NCBI RefSeq assembly: GCF_900109115.1
Contig: NZ_FNYV01000008.1
Span: 186,001 to 250,000, forward strand
DNA length: 64,000 nucleotides
DNA from: Micromonospora phaseoli
GTDB lineage: Bacteria; Actinomycetota; Actinomycetes; Mycobacteriales; Micromonosporaceae
Reading direction: 5' to 3'
The stretch's first letter is position 1; the number at the start of each line of letters is the position of its first letter. The notes under the pieces are model-generated. The model did no database searches and was not told the DNA's origin. It saw only the letters and a list, made by a program, of their open reading frames with translations. This document shows, one piece after another, positions 1 through 16,112 of the stretch. The translations under genes were made by a program, and so were the position numbers.

Positions 1-949
1 CCTCGGTGACGCCGTAGCCCAGCCTGCGCCACAGGTCGGCGTTGACCTGCTCGTGCGCGCCGAAGGGCGCGAGCAGCACGATCGGCGTGGCCGACCAGAG
101 CGAATCGATCAGTGTGCCCCCGCCGGTCTTGCAGAGCATCGCGACGCTTTGTCGGGCGAGATCGAACGAGTCATGGTACGACCTGCCCCTTCGGTACTCG
201 ACCGTCCCGTCGGGCCCGACCTCCCCGAACGGTGGGAACCCGTCGTCCTGCCAGGCCTCCCAGGTCGGGTCGATCATGAACGTCCGACAGCCGGCTGGCA
301 GGCCGGCCACATCGGCCGGGTCGTGCGCCACCACGTCGACCAGCAGCCCCGCCTGGGCGAATTCCGCCGCATGAGTCCGGTACGTACCCAACCCCCAGCC
401 GCCGCCGTGCGCCAACAGGCGGGGTTCCCGTCGCTGCCACGGCACCGGCTGCTCGTCCGTGACGCGGATACTCGTCGGCGCGGTGCCCCGCTCTGCGTCG
501 AACATCCACACATGGCGGTAGCGCTCCGTCCGCGCCCGGAACAGGTTGAAGGACGCGGTCGATGCGGCGTCGAGGTGACAGACGTCGACCCGGGGAGCCC
601 GAGCCGTCGATGCCTCGTACCGTTCGACGACCGGCACCCAGAAACCGGAGAAGATCACGAGGTGATCCACGTCCACGGCCCGCCAGCGGCGCAGCAGCTC
701 ACCGACCGCGGCTTCGTCCAGCGCCGGCAGTTGGTCGCGCACCATCCGCTGGGCGGCCACCGCGAGCTTGAAGTTGCTTCTGAAGGTCACCTTGGCAGCC
801 CTCAGCTTGTCAAGTTCGTCGGGTCGCAGCAGGCGCTCGAACACCTCGACGTGTACATCGATCCCGAGGGTCCGCAACCGGCCGGCCAGGATGAGGGCCG
901 GCACGTGGGTGCCGAGCGTCGCGCCCGACGTGAGCAGGACGACTGTCAT
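1..949 (-). CDS. Glycosyltransferase, cytosylglucuronic acid synthase-like (3' end outside window)
   Basis: Reading leftward from ATG at 949 gives an open frame to the window edge (about 316 residues), so the C-terminus is missing. A GGAG motif precedes the start, and the gene lies 14 bp after the ATP-grasp stop, so it is the fourth gene of the operon. The N-terminus (MTVVLLTSGATLGTHVPALI) has the Rossmann start of GT-B enzymes. HGGGWGLGTYR lies mid-protein, and the late TGGGTLIDSLWSATP and FGAHEQVNA motifs match the nucleotide-sugar-binding region of MurG/UGT-like transferases. From memory the whole pattern resembles the family annotated as cytosylglucuronic acid (CGA) synthase-related, which in blasticidin-type pathways joins UDP-glucuronate to a nucleobase. 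The sugar donor and acceptor here are unknown. A soluble cytoplasmic enzyme is expected, with no signal peptide or membrane segment. Confidence 0.82.
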   Translation of the reverse strand, partial: MTVVLLTSGATLGTHVPALILAGRLRTLGIDVHVEVFERLLRPDELDKLRAAKVTFRSNFKLAVAAQRMVRDQLPALDEAAVGELLRRWRAVDVDHLVIFSGFWVPVVERYEASTARAPRVDVCHLDAASTASFNLFRARTERYRHVWMFDAERGTAPTSIRVTDEQPVPWQRREPRLLAHGGGWGLGTYRTHAAEFAQAGLLVDVVAHDPADVAGLPAGCRTFMIDPTWEAWQDDGFPPFGEVGPDGTVEYRRGRSYHDSFDLARQSVAMLCKTGGGTLIDSLWSATPIVLLAPFGAHEQVNADLWRRLGYGVTE

Positions 950-963
950 CGATGCTCCGATCG

Positions 964-2241
964 TCAGGAGTCAGGCGACGAGACTCGAATCGGTCTCGTC
1001 GCGGAGAGCAGGTCGCCCACCTTCGCCTCGAGGGCGGCCCGCCCTGCGCCCGGTGACGCGAACACAGCGAAGAAGAGCCGCCCCCGGGGCGGGGTGAGCG
1101 TCCCCGACGCGAGCGGGAGCACCCCGGGACGGTCACCTCGGAACAGCAGATCTGCCTCGTCGAGCGCGGACAGCAGCCTGCCCAACGCGTCGCCGGCGAC
1201 CACTGGCGTCGTCCGGCAACGCAACCAGCAGCTCAGGCCGACGGCCCCGGCCCGCTGATCGAGCTGCAGGTTGAACAGACCCATCGATCGCCGGGCGTTG
1301 ACCTCCAGCACCGACACAACCGTGCCGTCGCGCAGCCACAACCCGTCCACGCAGACGGGACCGGTGTAGCCCTCTGCTGCCAGGGCCGCTCCGACCTGTG
1401 CGATCACCTCCCGGTGAGCAGGGGTGTCGAGGCTTGCGTGCTGCTCCGGCGAAAGCGGGCCGGAGCCCCGGTACGCGAACTCGGCGTTGTCGACGTGCCG
1501 CATACCCCGCCACCGGACGATGGCACCCGGACCGACCTCGATGTGGGTGGAGAAGCTGAGCGCCTCGTCGAAGAGAGGTTGCACCAACAGTTCCACCCTG
1601 GCCCCGCGTCCGGCCTGCCGCTCGAGGTGCCGAACGACGGTGTCCAGCATCCGAGGCGAGGTGACCCGCAGTGCGCCCAGGCCCGCCACTCCGTACGGGT
1701 CCTTGAGCACGACGTCGCCGTCCGCGTCCTCCACCAGCCGCCGTACCTGCCGGGGCGTGCTGGCGAGGACGGCAGCGCCGGGCAGGCCGGCGCCACGAAC
1801 CAGGTCGTTGGACCAGACCTTGGAGTTGACGCGCGCGGTCACCTCGGCGGTGGGGAGGGTGGCAACGAGTCCGAGTCGTTGGACGGCCGCGGAGGTTTCC
1901 GGCCGGACGGAGTACACCGCCGCGGCCCAGCCGCGCACCTGCGGTAACCCCACGTCGCCGAGCGTGGCCAGGCGCTCTTCCACCGTGGCGTCCTCCGGGC
2001 CCGGCACAGCCACGATTCGCGGCGCGATGCCGGCGGCTGCCAGTACCTCGACCAGGCCGTCGTCCATCGGCTCGGCGGTCAACAGCAGGTCACCCGGGGC
2101 ACAGCCGACCGCCAGGAGCTGGTCCAGGCAGCGGTTACCCCGGTTGCCGCCGACCGCCGGGCTGGCGGGCAACCGCGCGAGATCCGCGGGCCGCCACGCC
2201 GCCTCGGCGTCGAACGAGCCGAAGTGGACCGTTGCGGTCAC
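964..2241 (-). CDS. ATP-grasp domain ligase
   Basis: About 425 residues from GTG 2241, chosen because GGAG sits 5 nt upstream; an ATG at 2271 would overlap the ACP gene and has no Shine-Dalgarno. The middle third carries the ATP-grasp nucleotide-binding elements (VVLKDPYGVAGLGALRV, then ELLVQPLF) and the C-terminal part the Mg-binding SVLEVNARRSMG loop. ATP-grasp enzymes activate a carboxylate as acyl phosphate and couple it to an amine or thiol. Next to a free acyl carrier protein the likely role is loading an amino or other acid onto the carrier, as the BtrJ ligase does for the BtrI carrier in butirosin biosynthesis; this is inference. It could instead be an amide ligase acting on the released product. 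Confidence 0.85.
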   Translation of the reverse strand: MTATVHFGSFDAEAAWRPADLARLPASPAVGGNRGNRCLDQLLAVGCAPGDLLLTAEPMDDGLVEVLAAAGIAPRIVAVPGPEDATVEERLATLGDVGLPQVRGWAAAVYSVRPETSAAVQRLGLVATLPTAEVTARVNSKVWSNDLVRGAGLPGAAVLASTPRQVRRLVEDADGDVVLKDPYGVAGLGALRVTSPRMLDTVVRHLERQAGRGARVELLVQPLFDEALSFSTHIEVGPGAIVRWRGMRHVDNAEFAYRGSGPLSPEQHASLDTPAHREVIAQVGAALAAEGYTGPVCVDGLWLRDGTVVSVLEVNARRSMGLFNLQLDQRAGAVGLSCWLRCRTTPVVAGDALGRLLSALDEADLLFRGDRPGVLPLASGTLTPPRGRLFFAVFASPGAGRAALEAKVGDLLSATRPIRVSSPDS

Positions 2242-2260
2242 CGGAGCTCCGCGGCTCTCC

Positions 2261-2512
2261 TCACTGACCATCGGGGTCGAGAGCGAAGTGGCAGAATGCC
2301 TTCACCGACTCGAGATGAACGGCGTCCAACGACTCGAAGTCGATCTCGACGTCGAACTCCTCCTCGACGGCGAGCAGGAAAGTGATCATGTGCAACGAGT
2401 CGATGCCGATGTCCATCAACAGGTTGGTGTCCGCCGTTGTCTCGTGAGCGAGCGATGGCTCCTCCAGCACCCGCGCGAGCAGGGCCGCCATCCGGGTGAT
2501 CACCTCGTCCAC
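2261..2512 (-). CDS. Acyl carrier protein
   Basis: An 83-residue free-standing carrier protein starting at GTG 2512, with GGGGAG 7 nt upstream; the start lies 4 bp past the stop of the radical SAM gene. The phosphopantetheine attachment site is the DSL motif (GIDSLHM) with Ser39, and the helix II region is acidic, as usual for ACPs. The protein should need activation by a phosphopantetheinyl transferase, and none is encoded in this window. Its position between a radical SAM enzyme and an ATP-grasp ligase implies a carrier-tethered intermediate. No ketosynthase or condensation domain accompanies it in the visible part, so it does not look like a fatty-acid, polyketide or NRPS carrier. Confidence 0.93.
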   Translation of the reverse strand: MDEVITRMAALLARVLEEPSLAHETTADTNLLMDIGIDSLHMITFLLAVEEEFDVEIDFESLDAVHLESVKAFCHFALDPDGQ

Positions 2513-2516
2513 GCGT

Positions 2517-3695
2517 TCACTCCCCGCTCAGGTAGAGAAGGATGCACTTCGAACACACCGGCATGAGGCCGTTTTCTCGCAGCACGCTCCGGACCTGGGT
2601 GAACCGCTCGCTCTGCCAGATGTCCTGCATGGACTGCTCACCGAGATCACCGATGACGAACTCCGGAAAGAACTTGCATGAGCTGACCCGGCCATCGGCG
2701 TGGATCTCGATGCGATTGGACACCGCGAGACAGCGACTACGCCGCTGGGCCGGACGTGACGTGCCGCGGATGAAGTCGTCGATCTCGTCCTCTTCGACCT
2801 GCGGCTGGTAACGCACCCGCAGATCCCACACCCGGCCCGCCAGTCGCGCCATCGATTCCTTCAGTACCGGTAGGCACCTGTCGGGCAGCGCGTAGGTGTA
2901 CGAGTGCCACGTCGGCTTGTCGCCCGGCTCCGGCGGGTTCAGCCAGGAGAACGACTCCGCATAGAGCCGATCCATCGCCGACGCCGTCTCGGGGCTGATG
3001 TACCAGGGCAGCAGCCAATAGACCGAGTTGAAACCGGTCTGCTCAGCCCACTCGGTGAACTCGTACATGCGGCCCACCATGTCCTCGCTGACCATGCACG
3101 CGACGGACAGCTCGCCCTGGAACTCGCCGCGACGCTGAAGTTCGAGCATCGCCTCGACGTTCTTGAGCGTGCGCCGGAACGATCCCTTGCCCCGCAGGGC
3201 CTCGTGCTCCGGCTCGAAGCCATCGAGACTGACCAGCAAGTTGAGCCGCGGCCCGATGGCGAGCAGGTGCTCAGCGTTGCGTTCCATCAGCAGGCCGTTC
3301 GTGCACATGTTGACGACCCTTGGCACGGCGCCGAGCAACTTGGCGATCTCGCCGAACCGAGAGTGCATCAGGGGCTCACCGCCCCAGAGGAAGACCTTCG
3401 CCGCGTCGGGCGCGGTCGTCTCCAGCACGTCCCGGACGATGTCGAGGTCGAGCTCGGAGCGCTTGCGCTTACTGTCGTAGTTGTGGAAGAACCCCTGCTC
3501 GTTCCACTGAAAGCAGTGGTTGCACCGCAGATTGCACCGGTAGGTCAGCTGCATGCTGACCTCTTGCGGGAGGGTGGTGGCGTAGAGCGGATCGACCGCC
3601 AGGTTGCGGCGCGTCGCTGACCTGATCGCCACCGTCCGGCGAAGGTCGTGCAGCTCCCCCGGCGTGAAGACTTTTTTGGTGCGTGGGTAGGACAT
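2517..3695 (-). CDS. Radical SAM/SPASM domain enzyme
   Basis: 392 residues from ATG 3695, which has GGGGAG 5-6 nt upstream; a GTG 24 bases further out lacks this signal. The radical SAM cluster is Cys54-x3-Cys58-x2-Cys61 (CNLRCNHC), followed by the SAM-binding WGGEP at about 104-108. The C-terminal 80 residues form a SPASM-type auxiliary cluster region: a Cys near RCLAV, a Cys in VSSCKFF, and a terminal CSKC. Members of this superfamily use SAM and an auxiliary [4Fe-4S] cluster to oxidise, epimerise or crosslink peptides, amino acids or sugars. As the first gene of the operon with an ACP directly downstream, it may act on a carrier-bound or glycosylated substrate. No ribosomal precursor peptide was seen beside it. 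Confidence 0.9.
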   Translation of the reverse strand: MSYPRTKKVFTPGELHDLRRTVAIRSATRRNLAVDPLYATTLPQEVSMQLTYRCNLRCNHCFQWNEQGFFHNYDSKRKRSELDLDIVRDVLETTAPDAAKVFLWGGEPLMHSRFGEIAKLLGAVPRVVNMCTNGLLMERNAEHLLAIGPRLNLLVSLDGFEPEHEALRGKGSFRRTLKNVEAMLELQRRGEFQGELSVACMVSEDMVGRMYEFTEWAEQTGFNSVYWLLPWYISPETASAMDRLYAESFSWLNPPEPGDKPTWHSYTYALPDRCLPVLKESMARLAGRVWDLRVRYQPQVEEDEIDDFIRGTSRPAQRRSRCLAVSNRIEIHADGRVSSCKFFPEFVIGDLGEQSMQDIWQSERFTQVRSVLRENGLMPVCSKCILLYLSGE

Positions 3696-4157
3696 TCGGG
3701 CTCCCCGCTTGTCTGTCACGAAACGATCGCTCTCGCTCCAGGCAGGAGCCGTCGCTTCGCCAGATTCGTGATCGGATCCGGGACCGCACGCATCCCTACA
3801 TGCGCGCAGGCCCCGATACCACGCAGAGCCGGTGGCAGCCGTCCGACGCCGATGTGAGTGTCCTGCTCACGCTGCCACGGGTCAGTGAAAAGAGTGACAC
3901 ACGAGATCGTCGCCGTAAACCCCATCGATCGGCTTACGTATATCGCCAGCCGTCCAGTCGTGCTGCCGGCGTGGCGGGCCCGGCGCGCCAGCGGGTACTG
4001 CGTCGGGGCGGTTCGATCGACTGTCTTGGATGGACGAACTCGGGCCGTCAAGATTTCTTTCGCACAGCAGTCTGCTACGCGGTAGCATCCACGCACGGTC
4101 CGTTGTAGGCCGTTGCCCTAGCCCCCGGCATGAGTCGCGTCATGCCGAGGTGAGGCT
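3696..4157. other. Divergent intergenic region, comparatively AT-rich
   Basis: About 460 bases between the start of the radical SAM operon (minus) and the STAS gene (plus). Short open frames here have no recognisable homology or good start signals. The stretch around 3890-4060 is more AT-rich than its surroundings and probably holds divergent promoters. The only clear structure is the inverted repeat at 4127-4146. Confidence 0.5.
4127..4146. repeat. Inverted repeat upstream of the STAS gene
   Basis: GGCATGA, six bases (gtcgcg), then TCATGCC: a perfect 7-bp inverted repeat ending 11 bases before the ATG at 4158. It could be an operator or a small RNA hairpin just ahead of the ribosome-binding site (GAGGTGAGG). 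Confidence 0.4.
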
Positions 4158-4574
4158 ATGGATCAGCGATCCGGTGATAATTTCTCCATCACGCTGCTGG
4201 CCGCACCAGGGGCAACCACGGCCCTGGTGTGCCTCGCGGGTGAGATCGACCTGACGGCCAACTCGGCGTTGGCGGACGTGGTCGACCGCCTGTCCACCAT
4301 CGCACCGACCGAGGTCGTCGTCGACGTTGCTGAAGTCACCTTCGCCTGTTCCACCCTGCCCAACTTCCTTGCCCGAATGCACCTCAATCTTCCAAACCGC
4401 TCCGCGCTGGTCGTGTGCCGTCCTACCACCAACGTCCAGCGGCTGCTGGATCTCACAGACATGGGCCAGATCGTGACGCTGCGTGACGATCTGCCAACGT
4501 CTGGTTCCTGGGCACCACGCCGCACCTCACCCGCAACCACGGCCGCCCATGAGCCGTTGCTCGGCGGTCGATGA
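4158..4574 (+). CDS. STAS domain protein (anti-sigma factor antagonist type)
   Basis: 138 residues starting after a GAGGTGAGG Shine-Dalgarno. Residues about 10-110 form one STAS domain: VCLAGEIDLTANSAL, VVVDVAEVTFACSTLPNFL, then the LLDLTDMGQIVTL end. The place of the regulatory phosphoserine in SpoIIAA/RsbV proteins is occupied by the CST segment, so partner switching with an anti-sigma kinase is plausible but unproven. No anti-sigma kinase or sigma factor lies beside it; orphan STAS proteins are common in actinomycetes. The final 25 residues are low-complexity and probably disordered. Confidence 0.8.
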   Translation: MDQRSGDNFSITLLAAPGATTALVCLAGEIDLTANSALADVVDRLSTIAPTEVVVDVAEVTFACSTLPNFLARMHLNLPNRSALVVCRPTTNVQRLLDLTDMGQIVTLRDDLPTSGSWAPRRTSPATTAAHEPLLGGR

Positions 4575-4781
4575 TCACTTCGCAGAATCCGGCCGGGGTT
4601 GGGGCGCACCGCCTCCGGTCTCATCGGCTGACCTCACCTCTCTGCAGCACCCTTCTCACTGCCGGAGCCCCGGCCGGACGGTGGCCTACGGCAGTGTGTG
4701 TGGGCACTGTCGAGCTGAACCGTTGGTGCTATCACGCAGGGCTGGCCGACCAGCAAACGACGGCGGTCACCGCGCAACGGC

Positions 4782-10449: not shown

Positions 10450-11193
10450 TCAGTACACGCTCAGACCCCGGTCGCGGAACTGACAACGAACCCGGTCGAG
10501 CAGCTCCGGTCCGGGCGGGTCGACGCCGGCGAGCGGGAAGTCGAGACCGAGGGCGGTGTACTTGGCGGTACCCAGCCGGTGAAACGGCAACACCTCGACC
10601 CGCTCGACGGTGTCCACACCGGCGACGAGGTCGGCGACCGCGTCGACGTTGGCCGGGTCGTCGGTCAGGCCCGGCACGAGCACGAAGCGGACCCAGACCG
10701 GCTTGCCGAGCATCGCGAGCCGGTGCGCGAAGCGTACGGTCGCCGCCAGGCTGCCGGTGCGGGTCACCTTGCGGTAGGTCGCCGAATCACCGGACTTGAT
10801 GTCGAGCAGCACCAGATCGACGTCGGCCAGCAGCACGTCATCCGCGCGGTCGCCCAGGAACCCGCTGGTGTCCAGGGCGGTGTGCAGGCCCATCTGCTTG
10901 CACCCGGCCAGCACCTCGCGCACGAAGCCGGGCTGTTGCAGGGGCTCGCCCCCGCTGAGGGTGACGCCGCCACCGGAGACCTTGATGAACCGCTCGTACC
11001 GGCGGATCTCGGTGAGCAGGTCCTCGACGCTGGTCGACTCGCCGCTGCGGCGGTACCAGGTGTCGGGGCTGTGGCAGTACTGACAGCGCAGCGGGCACCC
11101 GGCCAGAAAGGCCACGAAACGGGTGCCGGGCCCGTCCACACCCGTCGAGATGTCGAAGGAGTGGACGGACCCGACACAGGGACCTGCTGTCAC
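10450..11193 (-). CDS. pflA: Pyruvate formate-lyase activating enzyme
   Basis: 247 residues, standard for PflA. The radical SAM cysteines are Cys33-x3-Cys37-x2-Cys40 (CPLRCQYC) after [12 protein letters not shown], and SGGEPLQQ follows in the SAM-binding region. The enzyme uses SAM to create the glycyl radical on pyruvate formate-lyase. Its GTG start overlaps the pflB stop by 4 bp (GTGA), so it is translationally coupled to pflB. Its 3' end faces adhE across 64 bp. Confidence 0.96.
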
Positions 11194-13430
11194 AACGCAC
11201 CGTGGAATGTGCGGGAGATGACGTCGTGCTGCTGCTCGCGGGTGAGCCGTACGAAGTTGACCGCGTAGCCGGAGACCCGGATGGTCAGCTGCGGGTAGTT
11301 CTCCGGGTGCGCCATCGCGTCCTGAAGGGTGGCCCGGTCGAGCACGTTGACGTTGAGGTGGAAACCACCGGCGTCGGTGTAGCCGTCGAGCACGCCGGCC
11401 AGGTTGCCGATCCGTTCGTCGCGGGTGCGGCCCAGGCCGTTCGGGGTGACCGTGGTGGTCAGCGAGATGCCGTCGCGGGCGCAGTCGTAGGGCAGCTTCG
11501 CCACCGACAGCGCCGCCGCGACCAGCCCGTGCCGGTCACGCCCGTTCATCGGGTTGGCGCCCGGCGCGAACGGCTCGCCCGCGCGCCGGCCGTCCGGGGT
11601 GTTGCCGGTGTGCTTGCCGTAGACGACGTTCGACGTGATGGTCAGCACCGACAGCGACGGTTCGGCGTCGCGGTAGGCCGGCTGCCGGCGGATCTTGTCC
11701 ATGAACCGCCGCACCAGGTCCACGGCGATGGTGTCGGCGCGGTCGTCGTTGTTGCCGAAAGTCGGGAAGTCGCCGTCCACGGCGTAGTCGACGACCAGCC
11801 CGGTGCTGTCCCGCAGTGCCTTGACCTGGGCGTACCTGATGGCCGACAGGCTGTCGACGGCCACCGAGAGCCCGGCGACGCCGGTGGCCAGGAAGCGGTG
11901 CACCGGGTGGTCGTGCAGAGCCATCTCGAGACGTTCGTAGGCGTACTTGTCGTGCATGTAGTGGATGACGTTGAGCGCGTCCACATAGGTCTCTGCCAGC
12001 CAGTCCAGGGTGTTGTCGAAGGCGGCGAGCACCTGGTCGAAATCCAGCACGTCGCCGGTGACCGGCGGGCTCGCCGGTGCCACCTGGTCGCCGCTGATCT
12101 CGTCACGGCCGCCGTTGATCGCGTACAGCAGGGCCTTGGCCAGGTTGGCCCGCGCGCCGAAGAACTGCATGTCCTTGCCGACACGCATCGCCGACACACA
12201 GCAGGCGATCGCGGTGTCGTCGCTGTACACGGGCCGGATCAGGTCGTCGTTCTCGTACTGGATCGAGCTGGTGTCCATGGACACCTGGGCGCAGAAGCGC
12301 TTGAAGCCGTCCGGCAGCTGCGGTGACCACAGTACGGTGAGGTTCGGTTCCGGTGCGGGTCCGAGGTTGTAGAGAGTCTGCAGGTACCGGAAGCTGCTCC
12401 GGGTCACCAGCGGCCGGCCGTCGGCGCCGATGCCGCCGATCGCCTCGGTGACCCAGGTCGGGTCGCCGGAGAAAAGCTGGTCGTACTCCGGGGTGCGCAG
12501 GAACCGGATGATCCGCAGCTTGATGACGAAGTCGTCGACCAGCTCCTGCGCGGCCGACTCGGTGAGCGTGCCCTCGTCGATGTCGCGCTGCAGGAAGATG
12601 TCGACGAACGACGAGGTGCGCCCGAGCGACATGGCCGCGCCGTTCTGCTCCTTGGTCGCGGCGAGGTAGGCGAAGTACAGCCACTGGATCGCCTCGCGGC
12701 CCGTCGTGGCCGGTCGGGAGATGTCGGATCCGTAGGCGGCGGCCATCGTCTTGAGCTCGTCGAGCGCGCGGATCTGCTCGGCCAGCTCCTCACGGGCGCG
12801 GATGACATCCTCGGACGACAGCTGGGTGTCCAGCTCCGCCTTACGCTCCCGGCGCTCGTCGATCAGGCGGTCGATGCCGTACAGGGCCACCCGGCGGTAG
12901 TCGCCGATGATGCGACCCCGGCCGTAGGCGTCGGGTAGGCCGGTGATGATGTGCGAGCGCCGCGCGGACAGGACGTCCGCCGGGTACGCGTCGAAGACAC
13001 CGTCGTTGTGGGTCTTGCGGTACTGGGAGAAGATCGCCTGCACGGTCGGGTCCAGCGTGTAGCCGTACGCCGTCAGCCCCGCCTCGACCATCCGCAGGCC
13101 GCCGGCGGGCATGATGGCCCGGCGAAGCGGCGCGCTGGTCTGCAGCCCGACGATCAGCTCGTGCGATCGGTCGATGTAGCCCGGCGGGTGCGCGGTGATG
13201 CTCGACGGGGTACGCGCGTCGACGTCGTAGATTCCGCGCTTGCGCTCCTCGACGAACATGCGCTGCAGCTCGCTCCAGAGCCGCTGCGTGCGGTGCGTCG
13301 GCCCGGCCAGGAACGCCGCGTCACCGGTGTAGGGCGTGACGTTGTCCTGAACGAACGCGGCGAGGTCGATCGCCTCCCGCCAGGTCGCCCCGGTGAACCC
13401 CCGCCAGGCGTCTTTGCGTTCCTGCACCAT
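11190..13430 (-). CDS. pflB: Formate C-acetyltransferase (pyruvate formate-lyase)
   Basis: 746 residues with a strong GAGGAGGAG ribosome-binding site. The adjacent catalytic pair Cys410-Cys411 ([20 protein letters not shown]) and the glycyl radical loop RVSGYAVNF with Gly721 near the C-terminus are both intact, so it should be active once modified by PflA. It converts pyruvate and CoA to acetyl-CoA and formate without oxygen; the glycyl radical is cleaved by O2, so this implies anoxic or microaerobic expression. pflA follows with a 4-bp overlap, and adhE converges from the other side. A formate transporter (FocA) is not present nearby. Confidence 0.97.
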
Positions 13431-13487
13431 GGCTCCTCCTCGTCTCTGCCCTCAGTTTCGTCAGTGACCACAGAGCCGGGTCAGGGT

Positions 13488-13524
13488 CGAAGTGCCCGGG
13501 AGGCGGAGCCACCCGGGCACTTCG
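13488..13524. promoter_or_regulatory. Long palindrome upstream of pflB
   Basis: CGAAGTGCCCGGG (13488-13500) and CCCGGGCACTTCG (13512-13524) are perfect 13-base arms around an 11-base loop, whose own GGC/GCC can pair further. It lies 58 bp upstream of the pflB start and about 150 bp downstream of the DUF4139 gene, both on the minus strand. It could be a terminator of the upstream gene (no U tract is seen) or an operator for the pfl operon. Confidence 0.6.
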
Positions 13525-13673
13525 GGGCCGGGCCAGCGGCACCATGATCTCCGGTCGCGGGTCGGAGCTCAGGCATCCGACCGTGGCTGCACCGAGGCCG
13601 GGCCGGGCTGGAGCAGCTACCGGGTTTGCTCGCGGCGAGCTGTCGTTGCAGTCCATGGACCACGGCCCAGCAC

Positions 13674-15257
13674 CTACTCCCGCCAGCCGGTCAGCTCGAC
13701 CCCCTTGGCCAGTTCCACCCGGAAGCCCAGCGCGACCTCGCCGCTGTCGCCCGGCGCGAGCGACAGCCGCCAGGTCAGCTCCCCCAGCTCCGTACGCTCG
13801 ACCGGCGGCGGCACGACGGTCGTCTCCCGCACGACCACCGCCTCGTCGCGCGACACCGGCAGTTGATCACGCACCTCGACGGTCGCCGGGCGGGGCGTGT
13901 GGTTGGCGACGGTGATCCGGTACTCCACCTCCCGCCGCCGGGTCGAGGAGAGCGTGGTCTTGGTCTCGGCGCGCCGATGCAGCTTCCGCTCCACCCGCAG
14001 CCGGTCGTCCACCCCCAGAGCCAACTCGGTCTCCTCACCCGGCGCCCACATCGGCAGCCTGCTGGACGCGACGAAGTCGGCGTCGTGGAACACCGCGGCC
14101 GGCCCGGGAAGCAGCGTGTGCTCCGACGTGTTGCGCACCTTGGCCCGCAGGTACGCCTCCGCAGCGCGGACCGGCGCGGTGACGTGGTCCAGCCGGGCTG
14201 GCAGCTCCAGCACAGCGATGGTGGCCCGGTGCGCGCTGCCGTCGGCCGGCACCGCCACCGATCGGGCCGGCCGGTAGGTGGCCGCGCTGACCCCCTGCTC
14301 GACCTCGGCGACGCTCTCCCGCAGCCACGGACGGCCCGCCGCGGAACGGGCCGGACCGCCGCCGGCCGGAGCCGCGCCGGGCAGCGGCACCGGCAACCCG
14401 AGCGGCATGTCCACCGACACCGCGCGCGCGGGCGCCGGCCGGATCCGGTCGAGATACCAGGGCGACAGTTCGGGTACGCCGGTCGCCGCCGCCGGCCGGG
14501 CGGTGGAAAGTTGAAGTTCACACTCCGGCCAGTCCTCCCCGGTGCTCTGGCTGACCATCCCAAACCAGGTGACCGTCATGGTGTCGTCGACCAGCCGCAG
14601 GTCGTAGGAGGGTTGCCACCGGGCCCCCTCCACCAGGTAGGTCAGCTCCAGCTCGACATCGGCGTCGTCGACCTCCACCGCCACGATCACCTCGGCAGCC
14701 AGCCGGTCCGGCTCCCGCTTGCCGTGCGCGGCGTCGAGGTCGCGCCCAACCGCGGCCAACTCCTCCGCCAGCCCGGTACGCCGACGGGCCAGCCCGCGCC
14801 GACGGGCCCGCGAATCGACGAGCTGGGCGGCCACCGAGTCGGTGAAGGCGGCCACATCGCTCGACGCCACATCGCCAGCGGCCAGGGCGCGGGCATACGT
14901 GCCACTGGCCCGCCCGGCCAGCCGGGTGAGGAACTCCCCGCGCTGCTCCTCGATACCGTCCGCGTCGTCGACCTCGGCCAACTCGTCGGCCAGCTCGCGA
15001 CGACGCTGCTCCAAGCCGATGACCTGCACGTCGGTGCTGCGGGCCTGCCGCCAGGTGGTCACGTCCACGCCGAGCACGGTGGCCGGGCCCCGACCGCCGA
15101 CCCGGACCGAGTCCCGCCGCAGGCCGAGCGGGAGTGGCGCGACGCGTACCCGGTGCCGGCCGGCGGCCAGCTGAGCACCACCACGCCGGGTGACCCGGGC
15201 CCGGTCCGGATAGACGGTGACGCCGACGACGGGTGCATCGATCTCCGCAGTGTCCAC
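13674..15257 (-). CDS. DUF4139 / mucoidy inhibitor MuiA-like protein
   Basis: 527 residues. The N-terminal part has the family start (VTVYPDRARVTRRG), followed by a charged helical, probably coiled-coil stretch at about 80-180 (ELADELAEVDDADGIEEQRG). The C-terminal DUF4139 half is beta-rich: ARWQPSYDLRL, then VSQSTGEDWPECELQLSTARP, RRREVEYRITVANH and VEVRDQLPVSRDEAV. The family is named after an Azotobacter mucoidy suppressor; its function is unknown and it lacks enzyme motifs. No signal peptide is visible. TACCCT lies 7 nt before the GTG start, so the transcript is probably leaderless and the gene monocistronic. Confidence 0.85.
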   Translation of the reverse strand: MDTAEIDAPVVGVTVYPDRARVTRRGGAQLAAGRHRVRVAPLPLGLRRDSVRVGGRGPATVLGVDVTTWRQARSTDVQVIGLEQRRRELADELAEVDDADGIEEQRGEFLTRLAGRASGTYARALAAGDVASSDVAAFTDSVAAQLVDSRARRRGLARRRTGLAEELAAVGRDLDAAHGKREPDRLAAEVIVAVEVDDADVELELTYLVEGARWQPSYDLRLVDDTMTVTWFGMVSQSTGEDWPECELQLSTARPAAATGVPELSPWYLDRIRPAPARAVSVDMPLGLPVPLPGAAPAGGGPARSAAGRPWLRESVAEVEQGVSAATYRPARSVAVPADGSAHRATIAVLELPARLDHVTAPVRAAEAYLRAKVRNTSEHTLLPGPAAVFHDADFVASSRLPMWAPGEETELALGVDDRLRVERKLHRRAETKTTLSSTRRREVEYRITVANHTPRPATVEVRDQLPVSRDEAVVVRETTVVPPPVERTELGELTWRLSLAPGDSGEVALGFRVELAKGVELTGWRE

Positions 15258-15264
15258 GGCGGCG

Positions 15265-15270
15265 AGGGTA
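15265..15270 (-). promoter_or_regulatory. -10 hexamer TACCCT, leaderless start
   Basis: On the minus strand TACCCT ends 7 nt before the GTG at 15257. Confidence 0.4.
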
Positions 15271-15539
15271 GCCGAGCAGCGCTCACGTCCCCGCCGACGA
15301 CAAGCGGAGGACGGCGCGCCGCAACCCCGTCACCGGCCACCCAACCCCTCACCCTGCTGGGACCGCACCCTCTTCCTCGACCCCGGCGGCGACCTCTGGT
15401 TCGTGCGCCAGGCGCCCGGGACCATGTCCGGTACGCGATGCCACGCGCCGTCTGCGGCACGAGCGTGCGTGCGTCGCCGGCGGGCGGGGGTGCCTGCCGC
15501 CGAAGAGCCGTGTCGGTGGGCGGTGGCAGGGTAGGCGTC

Positions 15540-16112
15540 ATGGCGATTGAGGTACGCCCGGCGACGGTGTTCGAGGATGTCGCGGCTGTCGTGGGCCCGA
15601 AGCGGCCGGACGCCAACGTGTGCTGGTGCCTGAGCTACCGCATCGGGGCGAAAGCGAACCTGCAACTGCGCGGGCCGATGCGCGGCGACCGGGTACGCGA
15701 ACTCGTCGGGCTCGATCCCCCTCCCGGAGTGCTCGCCTACGACGGCGACGAAGTCGTCGGCTGGGCGGCGGTGCATCCGCGAGCCGACACGAGCTTCGCC
15801 CGCAACAAGCGCATCCCGCACCTCGACGATCTGCCCGTGTGGACCGTGTGGTGCTTCCGGGTACGGCCGGGCCACCGCAAGCGGGGCATCGTGCGCCACC
15901 TGCTTACCGGCGCCGTCGCCTTCGCCCGCGAGCGCGGCGCGCCGGCGATCGAGGGCTACCCCGTCGACAACCGCGGCGAGAAGGTGGACCTCACGATGGC
16001 CTACGTCGGTACCCGCGCGGTTTTCGAGCACGCCGGCTTCGTGAAGGCGGCCGACACCACCTCGGTGCTCGCCGGGTTCCCACGCGTGCTCATGCGGCTC
16101 GACCTGCGGTGA
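15540..16112 (+). CDS. GNAT family N-acetyltransferase
   Basis: 190 residues from ATG 15540; a long in-frame open stretch before it has no homology and is antisense to the DUF4139 gene. The N-terminus has the CWCLSYR segment found in actinobacterial GNATs of this subgroup. VVGWAAVHPRAD, WTVWCFRVRPGHRKRGI (the acetyl-CoA-binding motif A) and GAVAFARERGAPAIEGYPVD follow. The protein should transfer acetyl from acetyl-CoA to an unknown amine. Confidence 0.85.
   Translation: MAIEVRPATVFEDVAAVVGPKRPDANVCWCLSYRIGAKANLQLRGPMRGDRVRELVGLDPPPGVLAYDGDEVVGWAAVHPRADTSFARNKRIPHLDDLPVWTVWCFRVRPGHRKRGIVRHLLTGAVAFARERGAPAIEGYPVDNRGEKVDLTMAYVGTRAVFEHAGFVKAADTTSVLAGFPRVLMRLDLR

Follow-up and report, generated by a model that had tools for sequence, protein, structure and literature searches.

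According to the excerpts of PMC8621148, mitE, mmcB, mitB and mitF are essential for mitomycin biosynthesis. MitB was shown there to glycosylate 3-amino-5-hydroxybenzoate (AHBA) bound to the carrier, MmcB-AHBA, with UDP-N-acetylglucosamine (UDP-GlcNAc), and MitD is the proposed radical S-adenosylmethionine (SAM) enzyme for C-C bond formation. A loader, a free carrier, a carrier-dependent glycosyltransferase (GT) and a radical SAM enzyme (rSAM) are combined in one pathway (MitE/MmcB/MitB/MitD; PMC8621148, excerpts). A gene cluster of Micromonospora phaseoli joins the same roles: an acyl/peptidyl carrier protein (ACP) with phosphopantetheine serine, an ATP-grasp enzyme as candidate loader, a GT and an rSAM. 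It crosses the left edge of the analyzed stretch of 64,000 nucleotides (the window, C13:186001-250000), located on contig NZ_FNYV01000008.1 (C13), one of the 30 contigs that make up a genome of 6.5 Mb. Butirosin biosynthesis includes the ATP-grasp enzyme BtrJ, the carrier BtrI and the decarboxylase BtrK, and transfer enzymes other than a condensation (C) domain are used. Pactamycin may be a second precedent for carrier-bound glycosylation, but among the papers listed none names the genes, and it is not used here.

The cluster comprises nine genes and spans C13:179432-189695. They encode the rSAM, ACP, ATP-grasp enzyme and GT, a short-chain dehydrogenase/reductase (SDR), an exporter of the major facilitator superfamily (MFS), a C domain, a flavin monooxygenase and a kinase. 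It looks like a member of a conserved, rare and patchily distributed cluster family, with a sugar-bearing, amino-acid-derived small molecule as candidate product. A dedicated specialized-metabolite cluster, with carrier-tethered loading, glycosylation, rSAM chemistry, release by the C domain and protection by kinase and exporter, is the preferred explanation and is given about an even chance.

Related loci were sought with a four-member rSAM profile (E<=1e-40) in 354 Micromonosporaceae genomes and in a phylum sample of 396 genomes. A nine-member profile (E<=1e-90) was applied to an order sample of 397 and a class sample of 394 genomes. The samples overlap, and four to five candidates were scored per genome. 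Plasmids were searched by tblastn with the rSAM in 72,556 records (E<=1e-60). Matches were obtained in 8 genomes of the family and 11 of the order sample. The cluster is considered rare and patchy because the class sample yielded two matches and the phylum sample one, the own genome. Two plasmid records matched, both from Streptomyces. All rSAM matches together with Saccharothrix yanglingensis (L019), found via the ATP-grasp enzyme, represent 16 distinct loci in 14 genomes and two plasmids (window, L017, L018, L029, L031-L034, L019, L058-L062, L066, L067). L028 and L030, second copies of L018 and L017, were left out of the count.

In all 16 loci, rSAM, ACP and ATP-grasp genes are neighbors in this order, and the GT gene follows on the same strand, one to three genes on. 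Since the set recurs together throughout, the four-gene grouping is real and not a product of chance. An earlier note on the window had proposed a search for the four genes in other genomes; a lack of synteny is excluded by these loci. The presence of rSAM and ATP-grasp is partly by construction, because the loci were found via those two; this does not apply to the gene order or to the occurrence of carrier, GT, kinase and C domain. The distances at 30 junctions from 15 loci lie between -11 and +4 bases in 28 cases; the other two are +29 and +176. Kinase and C domain each occur in 15 loci, a Gfo/Idh/MocA oxidoreductase in nine, the window-type SDR in four and the window-type FAD monooxygenase also in four. 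All nine genes are present again in Micromonospora sp. MH99 (L017), Micromonospora lupini Lupac 08 (L018) and a further genome of the genus (L029). Among named strains, the first two have the most similar ATP-grasp genes (78% and 77%, respectively).

A GT profile (E<=1e-20) detected in the family sample exactly the eight genomes with the rSAM; among the plasmids, the GT matched the same two records at this threshold. Pairwise identities over 14 loci correlated between rSAM and GT (rho 0.82), ACP (0.73) and ATP-grasp (0.55), none of which was reached in 2000 permutations. Such correlations would be expected of a unit inherited or transferred as a whole; the relatedness of the hosts contributes too. 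The genes move together as one set, on plasmids as well. L066 (NZ_CP108509) and L067 (NZ_CP134205) are large linear Streptomyces plasmids, typed as non-mobilizable by PLSDB. The plasmid location could help the spread of the cluster.

Judged by gene roles, not by sequence, mitomycin probably provides the nearest published logic found, ahead of butirosin. MitE is a CoA ligase, whereas the loader candidate here is an ATP-grasp enzyme. C domain and kinase are part of this cluster, but are not named for mitomycin in the excerpts. MitB has about 33 kDa (tagged), in contrast to the 360 amino acids of the GT (PMC8621148, excerpts). The relation is regarded as a parallel and not as membership, because the loader differs and the comparison is one of gene roles.

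The rSAM carries the radical SAM motif CX3CX2C at C54/C58/C61. In the 14 genome loci, C54, C58, C61, C131, C200, C322, C340, C381 and C384 are invariant, and both plasmid proteins have cysteines at matching places. The seven cluster cysteines (C54/58/61 and C322/340/381/384) are thus common to all 16 loci. A full SPASM domain has about seven further conserved cysteines in its C-terminal part. Only four are invariant there in the 16 loci, and a full SPASM enzyme with two auxiliary clusters was therefore rejected, although PF13186 matches. The auxiliary spacing is C322-x17-C340 and C381-x2-C384, and all four align to BtrN. The matching stretch of BtrN is its auxiliary-cluster region, where the sulfatase-maturating enzyme matched more weakly. 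The twitch enzyme BtrN holds one auxiliary cluster by four cysteines and performs a two-electron oxidation (PMC9012708, excerpts). The rSAM is predicted to be of this twitch type with one BtrN-like cluster. The SPASM assignment of the earlier note is retained for the two Pfam families and replaced for the cluster type. Its parallel to blasticidin finds an echo in a weak match to the cytosylglucuronate decarboxylase BlsE (E=2e-6), which is confined to the rSAM core (profile positions 66-182). L033 harbors a second twitch-type rSAM inside the cluster (10670-11767), 26% identical and with the same cysteine spacing; a luciferase-like monooxygenase (14677-15786) lies beside it.

Butirosin had been named by the earlier note, together with blasticidin-type nucleosides, as the closest known logic. 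A butirosin-like pathway would dispense with tethered glycosylation. ATP-grasp enzyme, carrier and C domain would make and transfer an amino-acyl side chain; GT, rSAM and SDR or Gfo/Idh/MocA oxidoreductase would build a separate core, either a sugar or a cyclitol. Both halves would be joined by the C domain, and the kinase, of the aminoglycoside phosphotransferase (APH) type, would confer resistance as for aminoglycosides. The adjacency of ATP-grasp and carrier genes in every locus and the alignment with the BtrN cysteines agree with this. The best model for the Gfo/Idh/MocA protein of L031 is an inositol 2-dehydrogenase, though with a score far below the cut-off, and the kinase is closest to a hygromycin-B kinase. 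A DegT-type aminotransferase is located near the L034 cluster. In seven more distant ATP-grasp loci, an ornithine/diaminopimelate (Orn/DAP)-type decarboxylase is paired with a carrier, resembling BtrJ/K/I. However, a BtrK-like decarboxylase of this type gave no match in the window region and the 15 other loci (phmmer, L039 query; positive control in 7 of 8 comparison loci). Plain butirosin logic was lowered because this gene is missing. An aminocyclitol synthase was not found among the Pfam-scanned genes, which are part of each locus. The C domain is a further difference from butirosin. The adjacency of ATP-grasp and carrier in the earlier comparison stands, as does the likeness to BtrN, with mitomycin nearer in logic; a butirosin-like pathway is a serious but unlikely alternative.

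The ATP-grasp enzyme was compared by a profile of 17 members, including eight more distant loci (L035-L042). Lys190, Glu323, Asn325 and Arg327 occur in all 17 aligned sequences. The profile matches the solved structures 8ynd ('ATP-grasp peptide ligase', 4e-20), PGM1 (1.2e-13) and 8yi6 (L-propargylglycine-L-glutamate ligase, 2.5e-11). The window protein did not match Pfam at E<=0.001, and none of five core members (window, L019, L066, L031, L060) reaches the Pfam cut-off; matches below it were PreAtp-grasp in L031 (3e-4) and ATP-grasp_3 in L066 (0.04). The three solved relatives are named peptide or amino-acid ligases, whereas the cluster enzyme always adjoins a carrier gene. To our knowledge, PGM1, 8ynd and 8yi6 work without a carrier. 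Loading of the carrier by the ATP-grasp enzyme is proposed mainly because of the lasting link with the carrier gene. The distant relatives are also accompanied by a Pfam-type carrier in seven of eight comparison loci. L036-L042, from the own genome and six others of the genus, combine the ATP-grasp gene with genes for an Orn/DAP-type decarboxylase, a carrier, a KASIII-like and an acyl-CoA dehydrogenase-like protein. The copy in the own genome (L039:8249-17454, contig C24) is a second, distant ATP-grasp gene, with the same five-gene set plus a C domain. L035:9010-11227 encodes an ATP-grasp enzyme (41%) together with a nitronate monooxygenase and a methyltransferase, without rSAM or GT matches and without a decarboxylase in the phmmer comparison.

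Alternatively, the ATP-grasp enzyme may join two free small molecules, as PGM1 or BesA do, and the carrier may be loaded otherwise, e.g. by an acyl ligase. The kinship with peptide and amino-acid ligases fits this proposal, as does an AMP-binding ligase near the L034 cluster. But neither an AMP-binding enzyme nor another carrier loader was found by Pfam among the nine window-side genes, and ATP-grasp and carrier genes are neighbors in all loci. Free ligation is considered quite unlikely.

The GT had no Pfam match at E<=0.001 in the window and none at E<=0.05 in any of five family members scanned. For the M. lupini GT, the best of five AlphaFold2 models from a four-sequence alignment reached a predicted local distance difference test score (pLDDT) of 78.7 and a predicted template-modeling score (pTM) of 0.83; the other models had a pLDDT of 58-72. 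The model retrieved 220 PDB matches at E<=0.001. Among the GT structures listed, MurG was best after re-alignment (Z 19.6, root mean square deviation 3.3 over 280 residues). The predicted structure identifies the GT as a GT-B fold enzyme, in agreement with the earlier note; the ATP-grasp identity given there agrees with the profile matches to solved ligases. Against NCBIfam, only short weak C-terminal matches to diglucosyl-diacylglycerol synthase were obtained. The likeness to MurG and this synthase consists of the fold and these matches; in contrast to MurG-type GT-B enzymes, the cluster GT lacks a Pfam match and was found in the 354 family genomes only beside this rSAM (E<=1e-20). Upstream in L067, a glucose-1-phosphate thymidylyltransferase (RfbA) is encoded, and L066 has a 50% identical nucleotidyl transferase. 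These two genes hint at a deoxythymidine diphosphate (dTDP)-sugar donor in the plasmid loci.

The C-domain profile of Micromonospora matches solved C domains, and HxxxD is kept in all 16 C-domain proteins of 15 loci. The best solved relative of the kinase is hygromycin-B 4-O-kinase (E=1.5e-7). Its HxD...N motif is present in 14 of 15 proteins; the histidine is missing in L033, where a MatE exporter follows the kinase. A LuxR-type regulator lies near the kinase in L060, L061 and L062. The kinase may have a role in self-protection. In L058, a more distant relative, a D-Ala-D-Ala ligase gene (13412-14479) begins within the last bases of the GT gene. Another D-Ala-D-Ala ligase elsewhere in this genome is 60% identical to the cluster copy. 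A duplicated drug-target gene within a biosynthetic cluster commonly points to self-resistance. The ligase, present in one of 16 loci, may equally be biosynthetic.

For the dedicated cluster with tethered assembly, the following steps from loading to export are inferred. The ATP-grasp enzyme would convert an amino acid, or a similar acid, to its acyl phosphate for loading onto the phosphopantetheine arm of the carrier, the serine of which is kept in all 16 loci. The GT-B enzyme would add a sugar to the tethered unit or to its partner, and an SDR or Gfo/Idh/MocA oxidoreductase may adjust this sugar. The rSAM would catalyze a two-electron oxidation or a C-C/C-X bond formation on the tethered intermediate, and its auxiliary cluster could accept electrons. 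The free-standing C domain would release the product by acyl transfer to an amine or hydroxyl. Kinase and MFS pump would serve self-protection and export, respectively.

Several observations weigh against this sequence of steps. The nearest solved ATP-grasp relatives carry the names of peptide or amino-acid ligases and not of carrier ligases, and this kinship speaks against carrier loading. The AlphaFold2 model of the window ATP-grasp enzyme was poor (pLDDT 54) and unfit for a structure search. In L035, the small protein next to an ATP-grasp enzyme of the same subfamily is carrier-sized but gave no carrier match in Pfam. The substrate of the GT could be a free molecule instead. L058 lacks both kinase and C domain. 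For the C-domain protein of L033, Pfam gave no match at E<=0.001, and its assignment comes from profile kinship only. The identity correlation between ACP and kinase was the weakest (rho 0.30 over 14 loci), being reached by 21 of 2000 permutations.

A new pathway class may tentatively be considered, at clearly less than an even chance. In it, the ATP-grasp enzyme would charge an amino acid, the GT-B enzyme, from a family that lacks a Pfam name, glycosylate the thioester-bound unit, the twitch rSAM fuse or oxidize sugar and amino acid on the carrier, and the free-standing C domain then release a new antibiotic scaffold; L058 hints at D-Ala-D-Ala ligase as its target there. With four to six proteins, the cluster would offer a compact test bed for ATP-grasp carrier loading, on-carrier glycosylation and rSAM chemistry on tethered substrates. 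Of the six most conserved proteins, two (GT and ATP-grasp) stayed below the Pfam cut-offs in those core members that were scanned. The cluster may also lead to an antibiotic-like compound not yet described, against which the kinase possibly protects the producer.

The cluster may make a known compound, with genes published outside the literature searched or deposited under other names. With 16 loci, some producer may have been studied, and MIBiG and most subscription papers lie outside the scope of the search. However, full-text searches on gene set, hosts and precedents revealed no published cluster with this gene set among the matches listed. Plasmid NZ_CP134205 is annotated as MFS, radical SAM, ACP, hypothetical protein, Gfo/Idh/MocA, aminoglycoside phosphotransferase, hypothetical protein and condensation domain; its record names ATP-grasp enzyme and GT 'hypothetical protein'. 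The chance of a known product appears small. A radical SAM system modifying a ribosomally synthesized peptide, suggested by SkfB (a peptide enzyme, E=1.2e-12), which ranks first among solved structures over the whole rSAM profile by its match in the rSAM core (BtrN sixth), and by several NCBIfam peptide-maturase models, was rejected as very improbable because a convincing conserved precursor open reading frame (ORF) is missing from the window and six related loci (30 small window ORFs gave three weak matches, each located between the genes for monooxygenase and C domain), while it is carrier and C domain that are conserved and the 25 listed of 67 NCBIfam matches are all far below the cut-offs.

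The window side was extended by 36 kb to the left, with gene calling and a Pfam scan of the added proteins (Table 1). The four tightly spaced minus-strand genes reported in the earlier note, including the free carrier with Ser39, were all located. On this strand, rSAM and ACP genes are separated by 4 bases, ACP and ATP-grasp genes overlap by 11 bases, and the gap between ATP-grasp and GT genes is 14 bases. The continuation of the cluster past the left edge, also predicted, added SDR, MFS exporter, C domain, FAD monooxygenase and kinase. Ketosynthase and precursor peptide remain absent as the note had stated. Its exclusion of a non-ribosomal peptide synthetase (NRPS) is valid only inside the window, because the NRPS-type C domain, about 2.4 kb past the left edge, belongs to the cluster. 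No adenylation domain or NRPS module was found by Pfam among the nine window-side genes.

Table 1. Features of the cluster in M. phaseoli. Plain positions refer to the window, those with prefix C13 to the contig.
Feature	Position	Strand	Basis
Radical SAM enzyme (rSAM), 392 aa	2517..3695	-	ORF; Pfam PF04055 E=2.3e-17, PF13186 E=9.5e-14; ATG at 3695
GGGGAG, ribosome-binding-like, ahead of rSAM ATG	3701..3706	-	Direct reading of sequence
Free-standing acyl/peptidyl carrier protein (ACP), 83 aa	2261..2512	-	PF00550 E=4.7e-9; phosphopantetheine Ser39 in GIDSLHM
ATP-grasp enzyme, 435 aa, proposed amino acid:carrier ligase	964..2271	-	Profile matches to solved ATP-grasp ligases
Predicted GT-B glycosyltransferase (GT), N-terminal 316 of 360 aa in window	1..949	-	ORF; AlphaFold2 model of M. 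lupini orthologue
GT, full gene	C13:185867-186949	-	Remainder 185867-186000 left of window
SDR/epimerase	C13:184956-185840	-	Left of window; gene call and Pfam
MFS exporter	C13:183554-184843	+	Left of window; gene call and Pfam
Free-standing condensation (C) domain	C13:182289-183557	+	PF00668 E=2.8e-18; motif HHMAADG
FAD monooxygenase	C13:180421-181626	-	Left of window; gene call and Pfam
APH-type (aminoglycoside-kinase-like) kinase	C13:179432-180478	+	Fructosamin_kin E=6.5e-5

A scan of window positions 2200-4600 revealed no promoter or terminator. In one genome, genes for a terpene synthase and a squalene-hopene-cyclase-like protein adjoin the cluster (L060:15360-17831); this linkage may be due to chance.

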